DNA from: Amycolatopsis sp. FDAARGOS 1241
GTDB taxonomy: Bacteria; Actinomycetota; Actinomycetes; Mycobacteriales; Pseudonocardiaceae
Reading direction: 5' to 3'
DNA: 64,000 nucleotides
Assembly (NCBI RefSeq): GCF_016889705.1
Contig: NZ_CP069526.1
Coordinates: forward strand, 7,637,001-7,701,000
Part shown: piece by piece, positions 57,217-61,373 of the stretch
How the letters are laid out: every line of letters begins with the position of its first letter
Position numbering within the stretch: position 1 is the first letter of the stretch
Translations under genes and position numbers: made by a program
Notes under the pieces: model-generated
What the model was told of the DNA's origin: nothing
The model's input: only the letters and a program-made list of their open reading frames with translations
Databases searched by the model: none

Positions 57217-57322
57217 GGACGGCGATCGCCAAGTTTTTCACGGCGCTCACCCGAGTGTCCCGACGACCCTCCGGTGGGGGTGGGGTTTGCTCCGTGTGGC
57301 TGAGCCGGGACACTCTGATCAC

Positions 57323-58555
57323 ATGAGCGCCCGCGCCCCCTCGTTCCGGAACGTGTTCGGCGTGGCGGAATTCCGGTCTCTGTGGCTCGCGCACGTGCTG
57401 TCGGTCGCCGGTGATCAACTGGCCCGGGTCGCGCTCACAGTGCTCGTGTTCGACCGTACCGAATCCGCGGGCTGGGCGGCGCTCACGTACGCGTTGACCT
57501 ACCTGCCCGACCTCTTCGGCGGTGCGCTCGGCGGTCTCGCCGACCGCTTCCCGCGCCGGGCCGTGCTCGTGGTGGCCGACGTGCTGCGCGCGGTGCTCGT
57601 GGCCGTGATGGCGATCCCGGGGCTGCCATGGCCGGCGGCCGCGGCGCTGCTCGTGGTGGTCCAGCTGGCGGCGGGGCCGTTCCAGTCGGCGCGGCAGGCT
57701 GTGCTGCCGGACATCCTCGGGCCGGACCGGCTGCCCGTCGGCCAGGCCGCGCTGTCCTCGACGTACCAGGCGGCGCTCGTGATCGGCTTCGGCGCCGGGG
57801 CTGCGGTGGTCGCGTGGCTCGGGGTCGCGGGTGCGCTGTGGGTCGACGCGGTGACGTTCGCCGTGTCGGCGCTCGCGCTGCGCTGGGGGCTGCGGCCGCA
57901 CCCGGTAGACGTCGTCGCCGAGCGGAAACCCCAGTGGGCGACGCTCGTCGCGGGCTGCCGCCTCGTCGCGCGGGACCGGCGGCTGCGGTCACTGCTGGCG
58001 ATCGCGTGCTGCTGCGGGTTCTACGTGGTGCCCGAGGGCCTGGCCGTCCCGATCGCCGCGCAGCTCGGCGGCACGGGGGTGCTGCCGTGGCTGCTGATCG
58101 CCAACCCGATCGGCACGCTCGTCGGCGCCGTGCTGCTTAGCCGGCTGCCGCGCGTGCGCCAGGCACGGCTGCTGGGCCCGCTCGCGGTCGCGACCAGCCT
58201 CGTGCTGCTGCCCACGGGATGGACGCCCGGCGTAGCGGTCACCGTGGTGCTCTGGACCATCTCGGGCGCGCTGTCGGCGCACGACCTGATCACACAGGTC
58301 CAGTACAGCCTCGCCGCCCCGCCCGAGCAGCGCGGCCAGGTGATCGGCGTCGCGATCGCCGCACTGCGCGCTTCGCAGGGCTTGGCCATCGCGGCCGCCG
58401 GGGCGCTGGCCCAGGTGCTCGCGCCCACCACCGTGGTCGCCGTCGCGGCCGCCACCGGCGCGACGGTCGCCGCCCTCGCCGCCACGGCCTGGACCCGAGC
58501 GGCCTGGCCTCGCCGAAGCCCCCTCGACGAGGCCACACCACCGGCGGCGCCCTGA
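57323..58555 (+). CDS. MFS transporter, EntS-like exporter group
   Basis: 410 residues. VFGVAEFRSLWLAHVLSVAG, DQLARVALTVLVFDRT, ALTYLPDLFGGALGGLADRF, PRRAVLVVADVLRAVLVAVM and PFQSARQAVLPDILGPDRLP match the MFS-3/EntS-like exporters of siderophores and small metabolites. ATG 57323 fits the family start. It is convergent with the mini-ORF array, whose last stop lies 46 bp beyond its own. Possible but unproven exporter for the array's peptides. Confidence 0.9.
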   Translation: MSARAPSFRNVFGVAEFRSLWLAHVLSVAGDQLARVALTVLVFDRTESAGWAALTYALTYLPDLFGGALGGLADRFPRRAVLVVADVLRAVLVAVMAIPGLPWPAAAALLVVVQLAAGPFQSARQAVLPDILGPDRLPVGQAALSSTYQAALVIGFGAGAAVVAWLGVAGALWVDAVTFAVSALALRWGLRPHPVDVVAERKPQWATLVAGCRLVARDRRLRSLLAIACCCGFYVVPEGLAVPIAAQLGGTGVLPWLLIANPIGTLVGAVLLSRLPRVRQARLLGPLAVATSLVLLPTGWTPGVAVTVVLWTISGALSAHDLITQVQYSLAAPPEQRGQVIGVAIAALRASQGLAIAAAGALAQVLAPTTVVAVAAATGATVAALAATAWTRAAWPRRSPLDEATPPAAP

Positions 58556-58600: not shown

Positions 58601-58627
58601 TCAGCTGATCCAGTTGTTGTCACGCAT
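58601..58627 (-). CDS. mini-ORF 15, MRDNNWIS
   Basis: ATG start, GAGGGGG 8 nt upstream; last unit of the array, tail Ile-Ser. Its stop lies 46 bp from the convergent MFS stop; no clear terminator is seen between them. Confidence 0.78.
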   Translation of the reverse strand: MRDNNWIS

Positions 58628-58665
58628 GCCTTTCACCCCCTCGAAGGGCTTTTCGCCGGGTTCGG

Positions 58666-58692
58666 TCAGCAAGTCCAGTTGTTGTCACGCAC
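58666..58692 (-). CDS. mini-ORF 14, MRDNNWTC
   Basis: GTG start, GAGAGGAG 7 nt upstream; tail Thr-Cys. Confidence 0.8.
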   Translation of the reverse strand: MRDNNWTC

Positions 58693-58740
58693 GGGGTCGC
58701 TCCTCTCGGGTCGTCGGGGCCAGACGGGCGGGGTGCGGGC

Positions 58741-58767
58741 TCAGCGAGTCCAGTTGTTGTCACACAC
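58741..58767 (-). CDS. mini-ORF 13, MCDNNWTR
   Basis: GTG start, GAGAGGAG 7 nt upstream; Cys at position 2. Confidence 0.8.
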   Translation of the reverse strand: MCDNNWTR

Positions 58768-58807
58768 CGGCTCACTCCTCTCAGGTCACGTGGCGAGTTG
58801 GTCGGGT

Positions 58808-58834
58808 TCAGCAGGTCCAGTTGTTGTCGCGCAT
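58808..58834 (-). CDS. mini-ORF 12, MRDNNWTC
   Basis: ATG start, GAGAGGAG 7 nt upstream; tail Thr-Cys. Confidence 0.8.
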   Translation of the reverse strand: MRDNNWTC

Positions 58835-58874
58835 CCGTTCGCTCCTCTCGGGTCACCTGACTGGTTGGCCGGGT

Positions 58875-58895
58875 TCACCAGTTGTTGTCACGTAT
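58875..58895 (-). pseudogene. mini-ORF 11, RDNNW with ATA in place of the start codon
   Basis: All parts are kept (GAGAGGAG 7 nt upstream, CGT GAC AAC AAC TGG TGA), but the start position reads ATA. Either an inactivated unit or use of a rare start; six codons. Confidence 0.6.
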
Positions 58896-58940
58896 CCGTT
58901 CACTCCTCTCGGGTCACGTAGGTAGCCGGTCGGGTCGAGC

Positions 58941-58967
58941 TCAGCGGGTCCAGTTGTTGTCGCGCAT
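58941..58967 (-). CDS. mini-ORF 10, MRDNNWTR
   Basis: ATG start, GAGAGGAG 7 nt upstream; eight residues. Confidence 0.8.
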   Translation of the reverse strand: MRDNNWTR

Positions 58968-59012
58968 CCGTTCGCTCCTCTCGGGTCACGTAGGTGGCCG
59001 GTCGGGTCGAGC

Positions 59013-59039
59013 TCAGCGGGTCCAGTTGTTGTCACGCAT
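59013..59039 (-). CDS. mini-ORF 9, MRDNNWTR
   Basis: ATG start, GGAGG 9 nt upstream (no GAGAG prefix in this unit); eight residues. Confidence 0.8.
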   Translation of the reverse strand: MRDNNWTR

Positions 59040-59085
59040 GCGCTTGCACCTCCGGATTCATCGGGCCACAGGGGCGGGGTCGGGC

Positions 59086-59112
59086 TCAGCGAGGCCAGGT
59101 GTTGTCACACAC
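59086..59112 (-). CDS. mini-ORF 8, MCDNTWPR
   Basis: GTG start, GAGAGG 7 nt upstream. The most divergent peptide: Cys at 2, Thr for the second Asn, Pro in the tail. Confidence 0.72.
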   Translation of the reverse strand: MCDNTWPR

Positions 59113-59152
59113 CGGCTCACCTCTCCCAGGTCGTGGTGGTCTGCCGGTCAAG

Positions 59153-59179
59153 TCAGCGGGTCCAGTTGTTGTCGCGCAC
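59153..59179 (-). CDS. mini-ORF 7, MRDNNWTR
   Basis: GTG start, GAGAGGAG 9 nt upstream; eight residues. Confidence 0.8.
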   Translation of the reverse strand: MRDNNWTR

Positions 59180-59224
59180 CGGTTCGCGCTCCTCTCGGTT
59201 CGGCAAGTCGTTGACGGCGCGGGT

Positions 59225-59251
59225 TCAGCGGGACCAGTTGTTGTCGCGCAC
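59225..59251 (-). CDS. mini-ORF 6, MRDNNWSR
   Basis: GTG start, GAGAGAGG 7 nt upstream; eight residues, Ser in the tail. Confidence 0.8.
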   Translation of the reverse strand: MRDNNWSR

Positions 59252-59295
59252 AGCCGGGCCTCTCTCGCGCCGTGGGGCGTCTCGGTCGCTTTCAC

Positions 59296-59316
59296 TCACC
59301 AGTTGTTGTCCTGCAT
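59296..59316 (-). CDS. mini-ORF 5, MQDNNW
   Basis: ATG start, GAGAGGAG 9 nt upstream; six residues, same peptide as unit 2. Confidence 0.8.
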   Translation of the reverse strand: MQDNNW

Positions 59317-59373
59317 GGCGGAAAACTCCTCTCAGTCACTGGGATTGGAACCACTGCGAGCTCCAGGGCCGGC

Positions 59374-59394
59374 TCACCAGTTGTTGTCGCGCAT
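59374..59394 (-). CDS. mini-ORF 4, MRDNNW
   Basis: ATG start, GAGAGGAG 7 nt upstream; six residues. Confidence 0.8.
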   Translation of the reverse strand: MRDNNW

Positions 59395-59438
59395 GCGCTC
59401 GCTCCTCTCGGCTCGTCGCGGTGTCCGGGTCGACCGGG

Positions 59439-59465
59439 TCAGCGGGTCCAGTTGTTGTCGCGCAC
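59439..59465 (-). CDS. mini-ORF 3, MRDNNWTR
   Basis: GTG start, GAGAGGAGG 8 nt upstream. Eight residues with the Thr-Arg tail, the commonest form. Confidence 0.8.
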   Translation of the reverse strand: MRDNNWTR

Positions 59466-59547
59466 GTCAGCCACCTCCTCTCGGGCCGGACCGGGGCCGG
59501 GCCGGTAAGAATGCACGGTCACGCCAGGGATTGCCGACCGTCCTCGG

Positions 59548-59568
59548 TCACCAGTTGTTGTCCTGCAT
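59548..59568 (-). CDS. mini-ORF 2, MQDNNW
   Basis: ATG start, AGAGGAGG 8 nt upstream. Gln at position 2; six residues, TGA directly after Trp. Confidence 0.8.
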   Translation of the reverse strand: MQDNNW

Positions 59569-59656
59569 CGCAGAAACCTCCTCTCACTTCCCGAAACCGC
59601 CGAAACCGCCGAAACCGCTGGAGATCGCGAACCCCTGCCGCATCCAACGACCGGGC

Positions 59657-59677
59657 TCACCAGTTGTTGTTTCGCAC
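59657..59677 (-). CDS. mini-ORF 1, MRNNNW
   Basis: GTG start, GGGAGGAG 8 nt upstream. Only unit with Asn in place of Asp and with CGA for Arg. First transcribed unit; six residues. Confidence 0.75.
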   Translation of the reverse strand: MRNNNW

Positions 59678-59709
59678 AGCGGAAGCTCCTCCCGAGAGCA
59701 GGGAAAACC

Positions 59710-59726
59710 CTCGACCTCAGGTCGAG
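59710..59726 (-). promoter_or_regulatory. hairpin before the mini-ORF array
   Basis: CTCGACC/GGTCGAG (7-bp stem, 3-nt loop) followed on the minus strand by GGTTTTCCC, about 33 nt before the first mini-ORF start. It has the look of a short attenuator or terminator within the leader. A further inverted pair ACTGAC (59846-59851) and GTCAGT (59866-59871) lies upstream. The rest of 59727-60077 must hold divergent promoters and shows no gene. Confidence 0.4.
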
Positions 59727-60077
59727 CCGAAGGGTCCAGACCAATCCGGACCGATCACGCGACCTACCGCAAGAAACCCACCACCAGCCGTCGCAGACGG
59801 TCGCGGCCGGCGCGGCGACCGGGGGTTATGCAGCACTCGCACGTCACTGACCGTGGTTGCCGCACGTCAGTGGTGGTTACGCGGAGACCGCGGATTCCCA
59901 GGTCCACTGAGGAATCACGGCGGGCCACCGCTACACCCAGTGGTCACCTCCCCTCTGCACCGTCGGACGCTGGGCTGTCCGGGCGAAATTTCCCGGCCGA
60001 CTCCCAGACTCCGGACGACGGGCGGCACGCGGCGCGCCTCGTCGTTTACGGTAGAAGCCAACCGGGTGAGGTGAAGA

Positions 60078-61373
60078 GTGCGCGGACGAGCAAACCGGTC
60101 TGCCGGATGGTTCACGGGCTGGCGCCTTTGGCGGTTGCCCCCCTACGTCCGCACGTATGTGGTCCTCGTCAACTTCGTGGCGATCGCCGCGTCGCTGAGC
60201 ACCGCGTGGCTGGTGCCGGTGCACCAGGCGGACCTGATCCGCTTCGGCGTGCTGGCCGTGTGCGCGGCCGCGGCCATCGAGGCCACGCGGCACATCGAGC
60301 GCCAGCGCGAGTACAACCGCGCGCCGACCGTCGCGTACGTCGACACGAAGGCCGTGTGGAGCATCGCGGCCGTCGTGGCGCTGCCGGCGGTGCTGGCCAC
60401 GGCGATGGTGGTGTTCACCTACGCCGTCGCGTGGTGGCGGGTCTGGCCGCGGGAACGGCCGGTGCTCCCCCACCGCTGGATCTTCTCCGCCGCGACCGTC
60501 CTGTGCGGCACGCAGGCCGCGGTCACCGTGCTCGCGCTGGGCATGCACCACTACCCCGGTGTGCCCGCCCCCGGCTTCCTGCCGGGCCTGACCGACCTCG
60601 TCGTGATCATCTTCGCGGCCGCCCTGCGCTGGGCCATCAACACGGCGCTGGTCATGGTCGCCATCGCGCTGTCGAGCCCACCGCGGTCGCTGTCGGACCT
60701 GTTCTCCGGCTTCGGCGACCAGCTGCTGGAAGCCGGCGCGATCGGCCTCGGGCTGGTCACCGCCGCCCTGCTGCTGCTGGCGAACCCGCTGGTGCTGGTC
60801 GGCGTCGTCGTGGCGCTCGTGGCCCTGCACCGCGGCCTGCTGCTCGCCCAGTTCCAGCGCGACGCCCGCACGGATGTGACCACGGGGCTGGCCACCAAAC
60901 GCTGGTGGCGCACGCTGGCCGAGCAGTACCTCGAACGCGCCCGCACCGGCAACGGCACCGTCGGCGTGCTCCTGCTCGACCTCGACCACTTCAAAGCCAT
61001 CAACGACACCTACGGCCACCCCACGGGCGACCTGGTGCTGCGTGAGATCGCGATCGCCCTGCGCAGCGAGGTGCGGGAGCAGGACATCTGCGGCCGCTGG
61101 GGCGGCGAGGAGTTCGCGATCATCCTCCCGAACGTGCCGACCATGGAGCACCTGAGCCACCTCGCCGACCGCATCCGCCGGCGCATCCCGCAGGTCGTCG
61201 TCGCCCTGCCCGAGCGCGACACCGTGATCAGCGACCTGACGGTGTCCATCGGCTGCGCGATGTACCCGGCCGAGCACCTGACCGGCGTTGACGACGTGCT
61301 GGTCGCCACCGACACCGCCCTGTACCGGGCGAAGCAGGCGGGCCGCAACCGAGTGGAGCCCGCCACACACTGA
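60078..61373 (+). CDS. membrane diguanylate cyclase (GGDEF)
   Basis: 431 residues from GTG 60078 with GAGGTGA just upstream. Six or so N-terminal helices (YVVLVNFVAIAASLSTAWLV, VLAVCAAAAIEATRHIE, VWSIAAVVALPAVLATAMVV, LVVIIFAAALRWAINTALVM) precede a GGDEF domain: DVTTGLATKRWW, LLLDLDHFKAINDTYGH, catalytic GGEEF in GRWGGEEFAII. REQD five residues before GGEEF is an intact inhibitory I-site. It makes cyclic di-GMP, which controls development and adhesion in actinomycetes. Divergent from the mini-ORF array. Confidence 0.94.
   Translation: MRGRANRSAGWFTGWRLWRLPPYVRTYVVLVNFVAIAASLSTAWLVPVHQADLIRFGVLAVCAAAAIEATRHIERQREYNRAPTVAYVDTKAVWSIAAVVALPAVLATAMVVFTYAVAWWRVWPRERPVLPHRWIFSAATVLCGTQAAVTVLALGMHHYPGVPAPGFLPGLTDLVVIIFAAALRWAINTALVMVAIALSSPPRSLSDLFSGFGDQLLEAGAIGLGLVTAALLLLANPLVLVGVVVALVALHRGLLLAQFQRDARTDVTTGLATKRWWRTLAEQYLERARTGNGTVGVLLLDLDHFKAINDTYGHPTGDLVLREIAIALRSEVREQDICGRWGGEEFAIILPNVPTMEHLSHLADRIRRRIPQVVVALPERDTVISDLTVSIGCAMYPAEHLTGVDDVLVATDTALYRAKQAGRNRVEPATH

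Follow-up and report, generated by a model that had tools for sequence, protein, structure and literature searches.

A tandem array of six- to eight-codon genes beside a predicted membrane diguanylate cyclase in Amycolatopsis: a likely peptide signalling system

Introduction

What might a bacterium use 15 tandem units of only six to eight codons for? The question is raised by a 64,000-nucleotide stretch of the Amycolatopsis sp. FDAARGOS 1241 genome (contig NZ_CP069526.1, positions 7,637,001 to 7,701,000; hereafter "the window"), whose minus strand carries at 58601-59677 an array of minute reading frames for peptides with the core Asp-Asn-Asn-Trp (DNNW). The array lies between the gene of a major facilitator superfamily (MFS) transporter and that of a GGDEF protein with a transmembrane (TM) domain. 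Comparison of related loci suggests that array, MFS and TM-GGDEF protein likely constitute a hitherto undescribed system for signalling between cells, complete with a dedicated receptor. We consider it probable that the MFS protein exports the tandemly encoded tiny peptide and that the GGDEF protein senses it through its TM domain and would turn it into a cyclic di-GMP (c-di-GMP) signal. The actinomycete families around Amycolatopsis are known for antibiotics, and we know of no input signals for most diguanylate cyclases.

Results

Fifteen tandem units with a conserved peptide core

The initial annotation of this region, made from the letters alone, had described a tandem array of 15 units, and the array proved to be real. 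The pattern GACAACAACTGG, with at most one mismatch, matches the window 16 times, 15 times inside the array and once elsewhere, compared with a mean of 0.22 matches (largest 2) in 100 shuffles. Each unit comprises a purine-rich Shine-Dalgarno (SD) sequence, a gap of about 7-9 nt, a start (ATG or GTG in 14 units, ATA in one), six to eight codons and TGA, which ends all 15. MQDNNW, VRDNNWTR and MRDNNWTR are each encoded twice, and the other peptides once:

Unit 1, 59657..59677, minus strand: GTG, VRNNNW-stop
Unit 2, 59548..59568, minus strand: ATG, MQDNNW-stop
Unit 3, 59439..59465, minus strand: GTG, VRDNNWTR-stop
Unit 4, 59374..59394, minus strand: ATG, MRDNNW-stop
Unit 5, 59296..59316, minus strand: ATG, MQDNNW-stop
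Unit 6, 59225..59251, minus strand: GTG, VRDNNWSR-stop
Unit 7, 59153..59179, minus strand: GTG, VRDNNWTR-stop
Unit 8, 59086..59112, minus strand: GTG, VCDNTWPR-stop
Unit 9, 59013..59039, minus strand: ATG, MRDNNWTR-stop
Unit 10, 58941..58967, minus strand: ATG, MRDNNWTR-stop
Unit 11, 58875..58895, minus strand: ATA as start codon, RDNNW-stop, written (I)RDNNW
Unit 12, 58808..58834, minus strand: ATG, MRDNNWTC-stop
Unit 13, 58741..58767, minus strand: GTG, VCDNNWTR-stop
Unit 14, 58666..58692, minus strand: GTG, VRDNNWTC-stop
Unit 15, 58601..58627, minus strand: ATG, MRDNNWIS-stop

The ATA of unit 11 (58895) probably represents a lost start, which would leave this unit dead. The two-codon tail accounts for an in-frame 6-nt length difference between units. 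A repeat of about 72 bp had been reported; the tandem repetition stands, but the start-to-start spacing is 61-109 nt and the reading frame is not maintained from unit to unit, so the array is not a degenerate long gene. Across the 15 units, the columns carry much information at the SD (-15 to -10), the start and codons 3-6, and little at the wobble base of the Arg codon and, for the most part, in the spacers. The AAC codons of the cores do not vary, which fits codon use (AAC 30, AAT 0 in five genes of the window). RNAalifold found 0 pairs across the 15 units, so that conservation of the spacers as an RNA structure, an outcome named beforehand as refuting, did not occur; an Rfam scan of the region gave no match at E up to 1, and a tRNA/tmRNA search of the window found none.

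Two further features lie upstream of unit 1 on the minus strand. Directly upstream, a terminator-like hairpin followed by a T-rich stretch (59708-59733) could terminate or control transcription running into the array. At 59940-59953 lies GGGAGGTGACCAC, similar to the SD and lead-in found at the first units of related arrays, with the core missing after it; it is perhaps a decayed unit.

The array recurs beside a GGDEF gene and, usually, an MFS gene

The initial annotation had overlooked that two flanking plus-strand genes are part of the unit, that the core varies by clade and that MR...W is the common form. The two genes are:

57287..58555, plus strand: MFS transporter of 422 aa, convergent with the array; Pfam MFS_1, 8.2e-22
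60078..61373, plus strand: TM-GGDEF protein of 431 aa, divergent from the array; Pfam GGDEF (PF00990), 1.4e-41, residues 264-425

The MFS protein scores 78 bits against the MFS_1 profile (cut-off 33.4), which places it in the superfamily; its best NCBIfam matches, an H+ antiporter subfamily and EntS, are all below their cut-offs. It is a likely peptide exporter. The TM-GGDEF protein has hydrophobic N-terminal segments. In 33 sequences, the GGEEF active site and the RxxD I-site show invariant G342, G343, E345, R333 and D336 and nearly invariant E344 and F346; from these features we predict a peptide receptor and diguanylate cyclase.

Other genomes do carry such arrays; their absence had been named as a refuting outcome. 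In a same-genus pattern search covering DNNW, NNNW, DNTW and NNTW, 40/80 Amycolatopsis genomes matched, and the GGDEF orthologue is present in every one of them (E at most 1.7e-109). Among the 40 pattern-negative genomes, 32 have no GGDEF match at E 1e-60, and seven that are GGDEF-positive carry another W-ending peptide: ENNW in G003, G027, G054 and G057, DVNW in G031 and G069, and DTNW in G019. No peptide was seen in G004, which is pattern-negative with a GGDEF match. DNNW units also occur in Kutzneria, Jiangella, Phytoactinopolyspora, Saccharomonospora and Qaidamihabitans. The pattern search of genome contigs returned 71 stretches; the 22 with at least two matches all belong to Amycolatopsis, Kutzneria or Jiangella, and the remaining 49 are single matches, most of them in unrelated organisms. 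Among viral contigs, 38 stretches have the pattern with one match each and none has at least two units, so no phage link was seen.

In the 22 loci compared first (the window, 18 Amycolatopsis, two Kutzneria and one Jiangella), a GGDEF homologue adjoins the array in 22/22 and an MFS homologue in 21, the exception being L158. Across 41 representative loci, GGDEF is present in 40 and MFS in 31, and the next gene cluster in only 4. The receptor gene itself is patchy: it was found in 223/297 genomes of the family sample, 39/394 of the class sample and 1/296 of the phylum sample (the window's own), samples that were searched with two different profiles and E limits (family sample, E 1e-20); the 40 regions compared from the family sample are mostly the top-ranked of the 223 matching genomes.

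From 132 loci, 113 were kept once identical proteins had been removed; loci without a GGDEF match over the TM part, including L204, L205 and L206, lie outside this set. One of 31 motifs could be assigned in 96/113 homologous loci, and none in 17. This rate carries a selection bias: the array pattern itself had retrieved 25 of the 113 (window included), every one of them with a motif. A fairer rate is 67/84, for loci that the receptor profile retrieved outside the genomes and contigs already known to be positive; these come mostly from the top of match lists and were not sampled at random. A mini-open reading frame (mini-ORF) criterion, built for mini-cistrons and not for concatemers, is satisfied upstream of GGDEF in 72/111 loci, compared with 1/111 opposite strands, 3/555 Markov shuffles and 3/362 other genomic segments; excluding pattern-fetched and already positive loci leaves 45/82 versus 1/82 opposite strands.

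An MFS match is present in 78/96 peptide loci versus 0/17 others; eight of these 17 have at least 5 kb of upstream flank, and six of the rest are negative in a longer locus too. In 5/78 the MFS gene lies downstream of the GGDEF gene, 4 of them on the same strand and 55-65 bp away.

The peptide differs by clade and also occurs as concatemers

The regions upstream of GGDEF homologues were searched without assuming the motif. The micro-ORFs found there are related but differ by clade and include RNNTWRRNNTWS, MRENTWRENTWK, MRENNW, MRKQENNW, RDVNW, RDKIW and MRTNEIW. The Jiangella family (f22) has MRDNTWT, MRDTTWS, MRDTNWVLRDTNWSW, MRDSNWT, MRDNKWSR, MRANSWD, MRGNSWD, MRDNHW and MRDAHW, and other families have MRHTSWS, MRSVQWA, MRDVHWG and MRDTTWI. 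Cores by clade include DNNW, DNTW, DTTW, GNSW, ANSW, ENNW and DREA. Of 361 mini-cistron units from 79 loci, 342 have Arg as residue 2 and 330 take the form MR...W; because the units were picked by the core of their locus, the Trp count is partly circular and the Arg count is not. Copy number in these 79 loci ranges from 1 to 16, counted in up to 1.5 kb.

In relatives, in-frame duplicated cores are linked by R or RR (VRDNNWRDNNWR, MRENTWRENTWK). A sister clade has, in the same place, one ORF that repeats the core in frame (PTDW, STDW, GNEW, GSEW, SNNW or GRPxxW), with STDW present six times, PTDW ten times and GNEW six times. The in-frame duplicated cores and single-ORF concatemers suggest that it is the peptide rather than the DNA or RNA that counts, which bears out the earlier view that the translated peptide is the conserved entity. 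A protein search with the GNEW concatemer found no homologue at E 0.001, and one with the PTDW concatemer found six, all named hypothetical protein; Pfam and NCBIfam gave no family above cut-off for eight concatemers. On inspection alone, the precursors showed no signal peptide.

Beyond the window, the same genome harbours two further TM-GGDEF/MFS loci that encode peptides of their own, L336 (G000:C1:1252500-1262500) and L335 (G000:C1:9462000-9472000). These extra peptides are MRDREA (three copies) and MRSKEQ (one copy), so that a Trp ending is not obligatory in cores. Three loci of genome G463 (f22), namely L346, L351 and L354, encode MRDNKWSR, MRDNHW and MRANSWD, suggestive of several private channels operating side by side.

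Peptide changes track the TM domain of the receptor

When peptides differ, the GGDEF TM domain diverges beyond the catalytic expectation, and the MFS protein, given TM, does not. Placing the 32 labels (31 motifs and "none") on the GGDEF tree, built by a quick method from 112 rows, takes 38 changes, the minimum being 31; shuffled labels need 78.3 on average, and 0/200 shuffles were as low as 38. All 17 concatemer loci form, together with one peptide-less locus, a single group of 18. The MFS tree (76 rows) requires 25 changes for its 22 labels (minimum 21, shuffled mean 47.7).

Distance tests used the 75/96 loci that have both an MFS and a long GGDEF sequence, and 53 representatives. For pairs at a catalytic distance of 0.12-0.45, a difference in peptide correlates with TM distance at a partial r of 0.778 (0/300 permutations) and with MFS distance at -0.065 (255/300); the value for catalytic distance given TM is -0.449. 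The TM coefficient is 0.419 (0/500) for all 75 loci, 0.383 (0/500) for the 53 representatives and 0.600 (0/500) for the Pseudonocardiaceae representatives, and the respective values for MFS given catalytic and TM distance are 0.013, -0.011 (280/500) and -0.129. The Jiangellaceae representatives give 0.393 (0/500) for TM and -0.020 for MFS. In the Jiangella locus L196, which encodes DNNW, TM/catalytic distances are 0.434/0.49 to 26 Pseudonocardiaceae DNNW receptors and 0.339/0.22 to seven DNTW receptors of its own family.

R184 as a candidate contact for the first core residue

One receptor position stands out:

60627..60629, plus strand: R184 codon, within the TM-domain part of the GGDEF gene; residue predicted to contact the Asp/Glu of the peptide

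When receptors of acidic-first cores (55) were compared with others (9), eight GGDEF columns and three MFS columns passed the filter. R184, which sits in a hydrophobic segment of the GGDEF protein, separates the two groups better than any other of the 431 positions, and the twelve highest-ranked columns all fall in the TM domain. In loci outside the filter, Arg is found at this position in 9/9 acidic-first loci and 2/23 others, a test that was not blind because the concatemer alignment rows had been seen before R184 was noticed; the seven GGDEF columns picked alongside it did worse on these loci. Across all 96 peptide loci, Arg is present in 62/64 with a D/E-first core and 3/32 others, and is absent from the 17 concatemer receptors and from eight ANSW/GNSW receptors. 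Read on the tree, differences at R184 occur at three places: between the mini-cistron and concatemer clades, at ANSW/GNSW inside Jiangellaceae, and between DVHW/DTTW and HTSW/SVQW in distant families. A search for receptor residues specific to DNNW left only P124 after filtering. We infer a salt bridge between R184 and the first core residue of the peptide.

Six peptide-less receptors (L240, L245, L251, L254, L261 and L326) keep Arg at R184, and the R184 rule predicts for them an acidic-first peptide somewhere.

Recurrent elements between the divergent genes

Two recurrent elements between the array and the GGDEF gene may mark the promoters of these divergent genes:

59973..59983, minus strand: element CCCGGNYRGMC, upstream of the first unit; putative array promoter or operator
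60044..60053, plus strand: GTTTACGGTA, before the GGDEF gene, TANNNT-like; putative -10 element

CCCGGNYRGMC occurs on the array strand in 37/96 peptide loci and 3/17 others (1.35 and 0.35 expected from shuffles), and on the opposite strand in 2 and 0. For GTTTACGGTA, the first 8 of 10 pattern positions fit in the window and a full match is absent; the full 10-position pattern, read on the array strand, is found in 26/96 peptide loci (0.65 expected) and on the other strand in 0.

The motif TNACN5GTNA, which we take to be the BldD box, was rejected as an element of the peptide loci: it is present in 10/113 loci, with 4 among the 96 and 5 in peptide-less loci of family f19. All five kept f19 TM-GGDEF loci (L304, L305, L307, L308 and L309) have the site 17-124 nt upstream and show no peptide or MFS match; they are perhaps a peptide-free branch under other control.

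Discussion

The locus comparison shows that the peptide is conserved at the amino-acid level, that it is encoded in mini-cistrons or in-frame concatemers, that it recurs beside a TM-GGDEF gene and, in most cases, an MFS gene, and that its identity co-varies with the TM domain of the GGDEF protein. Beyond this, we propose that the mini-cistrons are translated into short peptides, from which Arg and the tail would be trimmed, and that the neighbouring MFS protein would transport the peptide outwards. From outside, it would bind the GGDEF TM domain, and binding would activate rather than inhibit the cyclase and so change c-di-GMP; in sporulating actinomycetes, the output might for example be BldD. 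Many cistrons of six to eight codons could give a high yield without a signal peptide or dedicated protease. On balance, we favour the broader view of a new communication class, in which genes of six to eight codons (in arrays of up to 16) or concatemers would yield mostly Trp-ending pheromones of four to six residues, exported by MFS proteins and read by a cyclase through an Arg-Asp/Glu contact, with several private c-di-GMP channels per genome.

Several observations weigh against this proposal. The motifs were assigned by eye, those present in single copy are weak (SKEQ, STQW, DIIW, NEIW, DVHW, DSTW, ENCW and others), and L284 and L285 mix motifs. The label permutations do not keep phylogeny, with the MFS proteins of the same loci serving as internal control, and among the pairs at a catalytic distance of 0.12-0.45, catalytic distance given MFS distance gives 0.307 (0/300). 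Without TM control, a weak MFS effect appears for all loci (r 0.179; 1/500), the representatives (0.165; 1/500) and the Pseudonocardiaceae representatives (0.304; 4/500), and in Jiangellaceae representatives the TM/catalytic ratio changes little, from 1.161 for the same peptide to 1.24 for different ones. The R184 rule is missed by DKIW and DREA, which lack the Arg, and by NNTW (2 loci) and NEIW, which have it. An MFS match is missing from 18/96 peptide loci, nine of them with less than 5 kb of upstream flank and nine with a longer one; for the short-flank loci L298, L302 and L303 it is also absent from longer loci, and among the long-flank loci L260 has a different MFS_1 protein there and L270 and L278 have weak partial matches. 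No shared protease recurs among the loci. Finally, L205 and L206 have a single DNNW unit and no GGDEF match in 20 kb; L206 has an MFS gene and L205 neither, and their receptor may lie elsewhere or have been lost.

The peptides could also act inside the cell on the GGDEF protein, for example by keeping it off, while the MFS protein exports a small molecule or imports the peptide. The missing signal peptides (judged by inspection) and the loci without an MFS match would agree with this, and the TM co-variation fits any direct peptide-GGDEF contact; we nevertheless consider it unlikely, given the MFS match in peptide loci and in none of the others, and given concatemers whose variable spacer residues resemble precursors cut to a small product. 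Less probable still is a minimal ribosomally synthesized and post-translationally modified peptide (RiPP), such as an antibiotic, with the mini-genes as precursors, the MFS protein as exporter and the GGDEF protein regulating production. In its favour are a precursor size near that of the biarylitide pentapeptides (accessible part of PMC13417212), the presence of an MFS gene and a Trp in almost every core; no third gene recurs in the 41 representative loci, however, the single aromatic residue per window core leaves no partner for a biaryl bridge, and the peptide changes track the GGDEF membrane domain.

An RNA or translational device (attenuation, titration of tRNA-Trp or ribosomes, or an antitoxin-type repeat RNA) could make use of fourteen consecutive SD-start sites and of the hairpin just upstream of unit 1. 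It seems very unlikely in view of the unpaired fold, the empty Rfam scan and the homologous loci that use one concatemer ORF. Moreover, as the initial annotation had stated, no gene follows on the array strand, the next gene being the convergent MFS gene; with no regulated same-strand gene downstream, leader-peptide attenuation is indeed improbable. Neutral or selfish tandem repeats beside a regulatory gene pair would account for copy numbers of 1 to 16 and for the startless unit of the window, but we give this account hardly any weight, as the core codons keep the peptide while the Arg wobble is free, the spacers are little conserved and the motif follows receptor phylogeny. The multi-copy signal peptide that the initial annotation listed among its candidates agrees with our best reading, an exported peptide sensed by the GGDEF TM domain; we found no support for its other candidates, namely a minimal RiPP precursor with tailoring, a toxin, or an RNA that titrates tRNA or ribosomes. 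Its interpretation is thus partly supported.

If the proposal is true, a membrane diguanylate cyclase has a gene-encoded, clade-specific ligand with a predicted contact residue, and cistrons of 21-27 nt, a size class that gene scans would seldom target, can work as arrays. Synthetic peptides of 4-8 residues would allow the proposal to be tested.

Comparison with known systems

We found no described system matching the trio in the literature, a search that left subscription papers largely outside. Multi-copy prohormones such as yeast alpha-factor and the FMRFamide precursors are likewise concatemers of short cores with basic or variable linkers; here, by contrast, the organism is bacterial, no secretion signal was seen and separate mini-cistrons also occur. 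Biarylitide and related pentapeptide precursors, as described in the accessible part of PMC13417212, share tiny genes (18 bp there, 21-27 nt here), an M-[RK] start and sometimes a Trp at the end. They differ from the present loci, which have tandem arrays, no Tyr at position 3 and TM-GGDEF and MFS partners; cytochrome P450 is not among the recurrent neighbours of the 41 loci, over which no P450 profile was run. Assignment to the biarylitides was rejected, as the crosslinked pair of aromatics two apart (YxH, YxW) is absent from the window cores DNNW, NNNW and DNTW. The control of actinomycete development by c-di-GMP and BldD shares c-di-GMP signalling in sporulating actinomycetes; unlike here, a peptide input is not mentioned in the accessible part of that account (PMC4151990).

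The closest parallels are with peptide pheromones. Agr, ComX, SHP/Rgg, Phr and arbitrium are peptide pheromone systems of Firmicutes. Processed oligopeptides serve as signals in this phylum, as the accessible part of PMC4748050 states in general terms. Like these systems, the loci described here combine a short gene-encoded peptide with dedicated neighbours and paired variants of peptide and receptor (pherotypes): the short peptide is conserved as a peptide, and the sensor domain of the linked receptor co-varies with it, apart from the misses noted above. Unlike them, no maturation enzyme recurs, the peptide is encoded in tandem cistrons of six to eight codons or in concatemers, and the partners are a predicted membrane diguanylate cyclase receptor and an MFS transporter.

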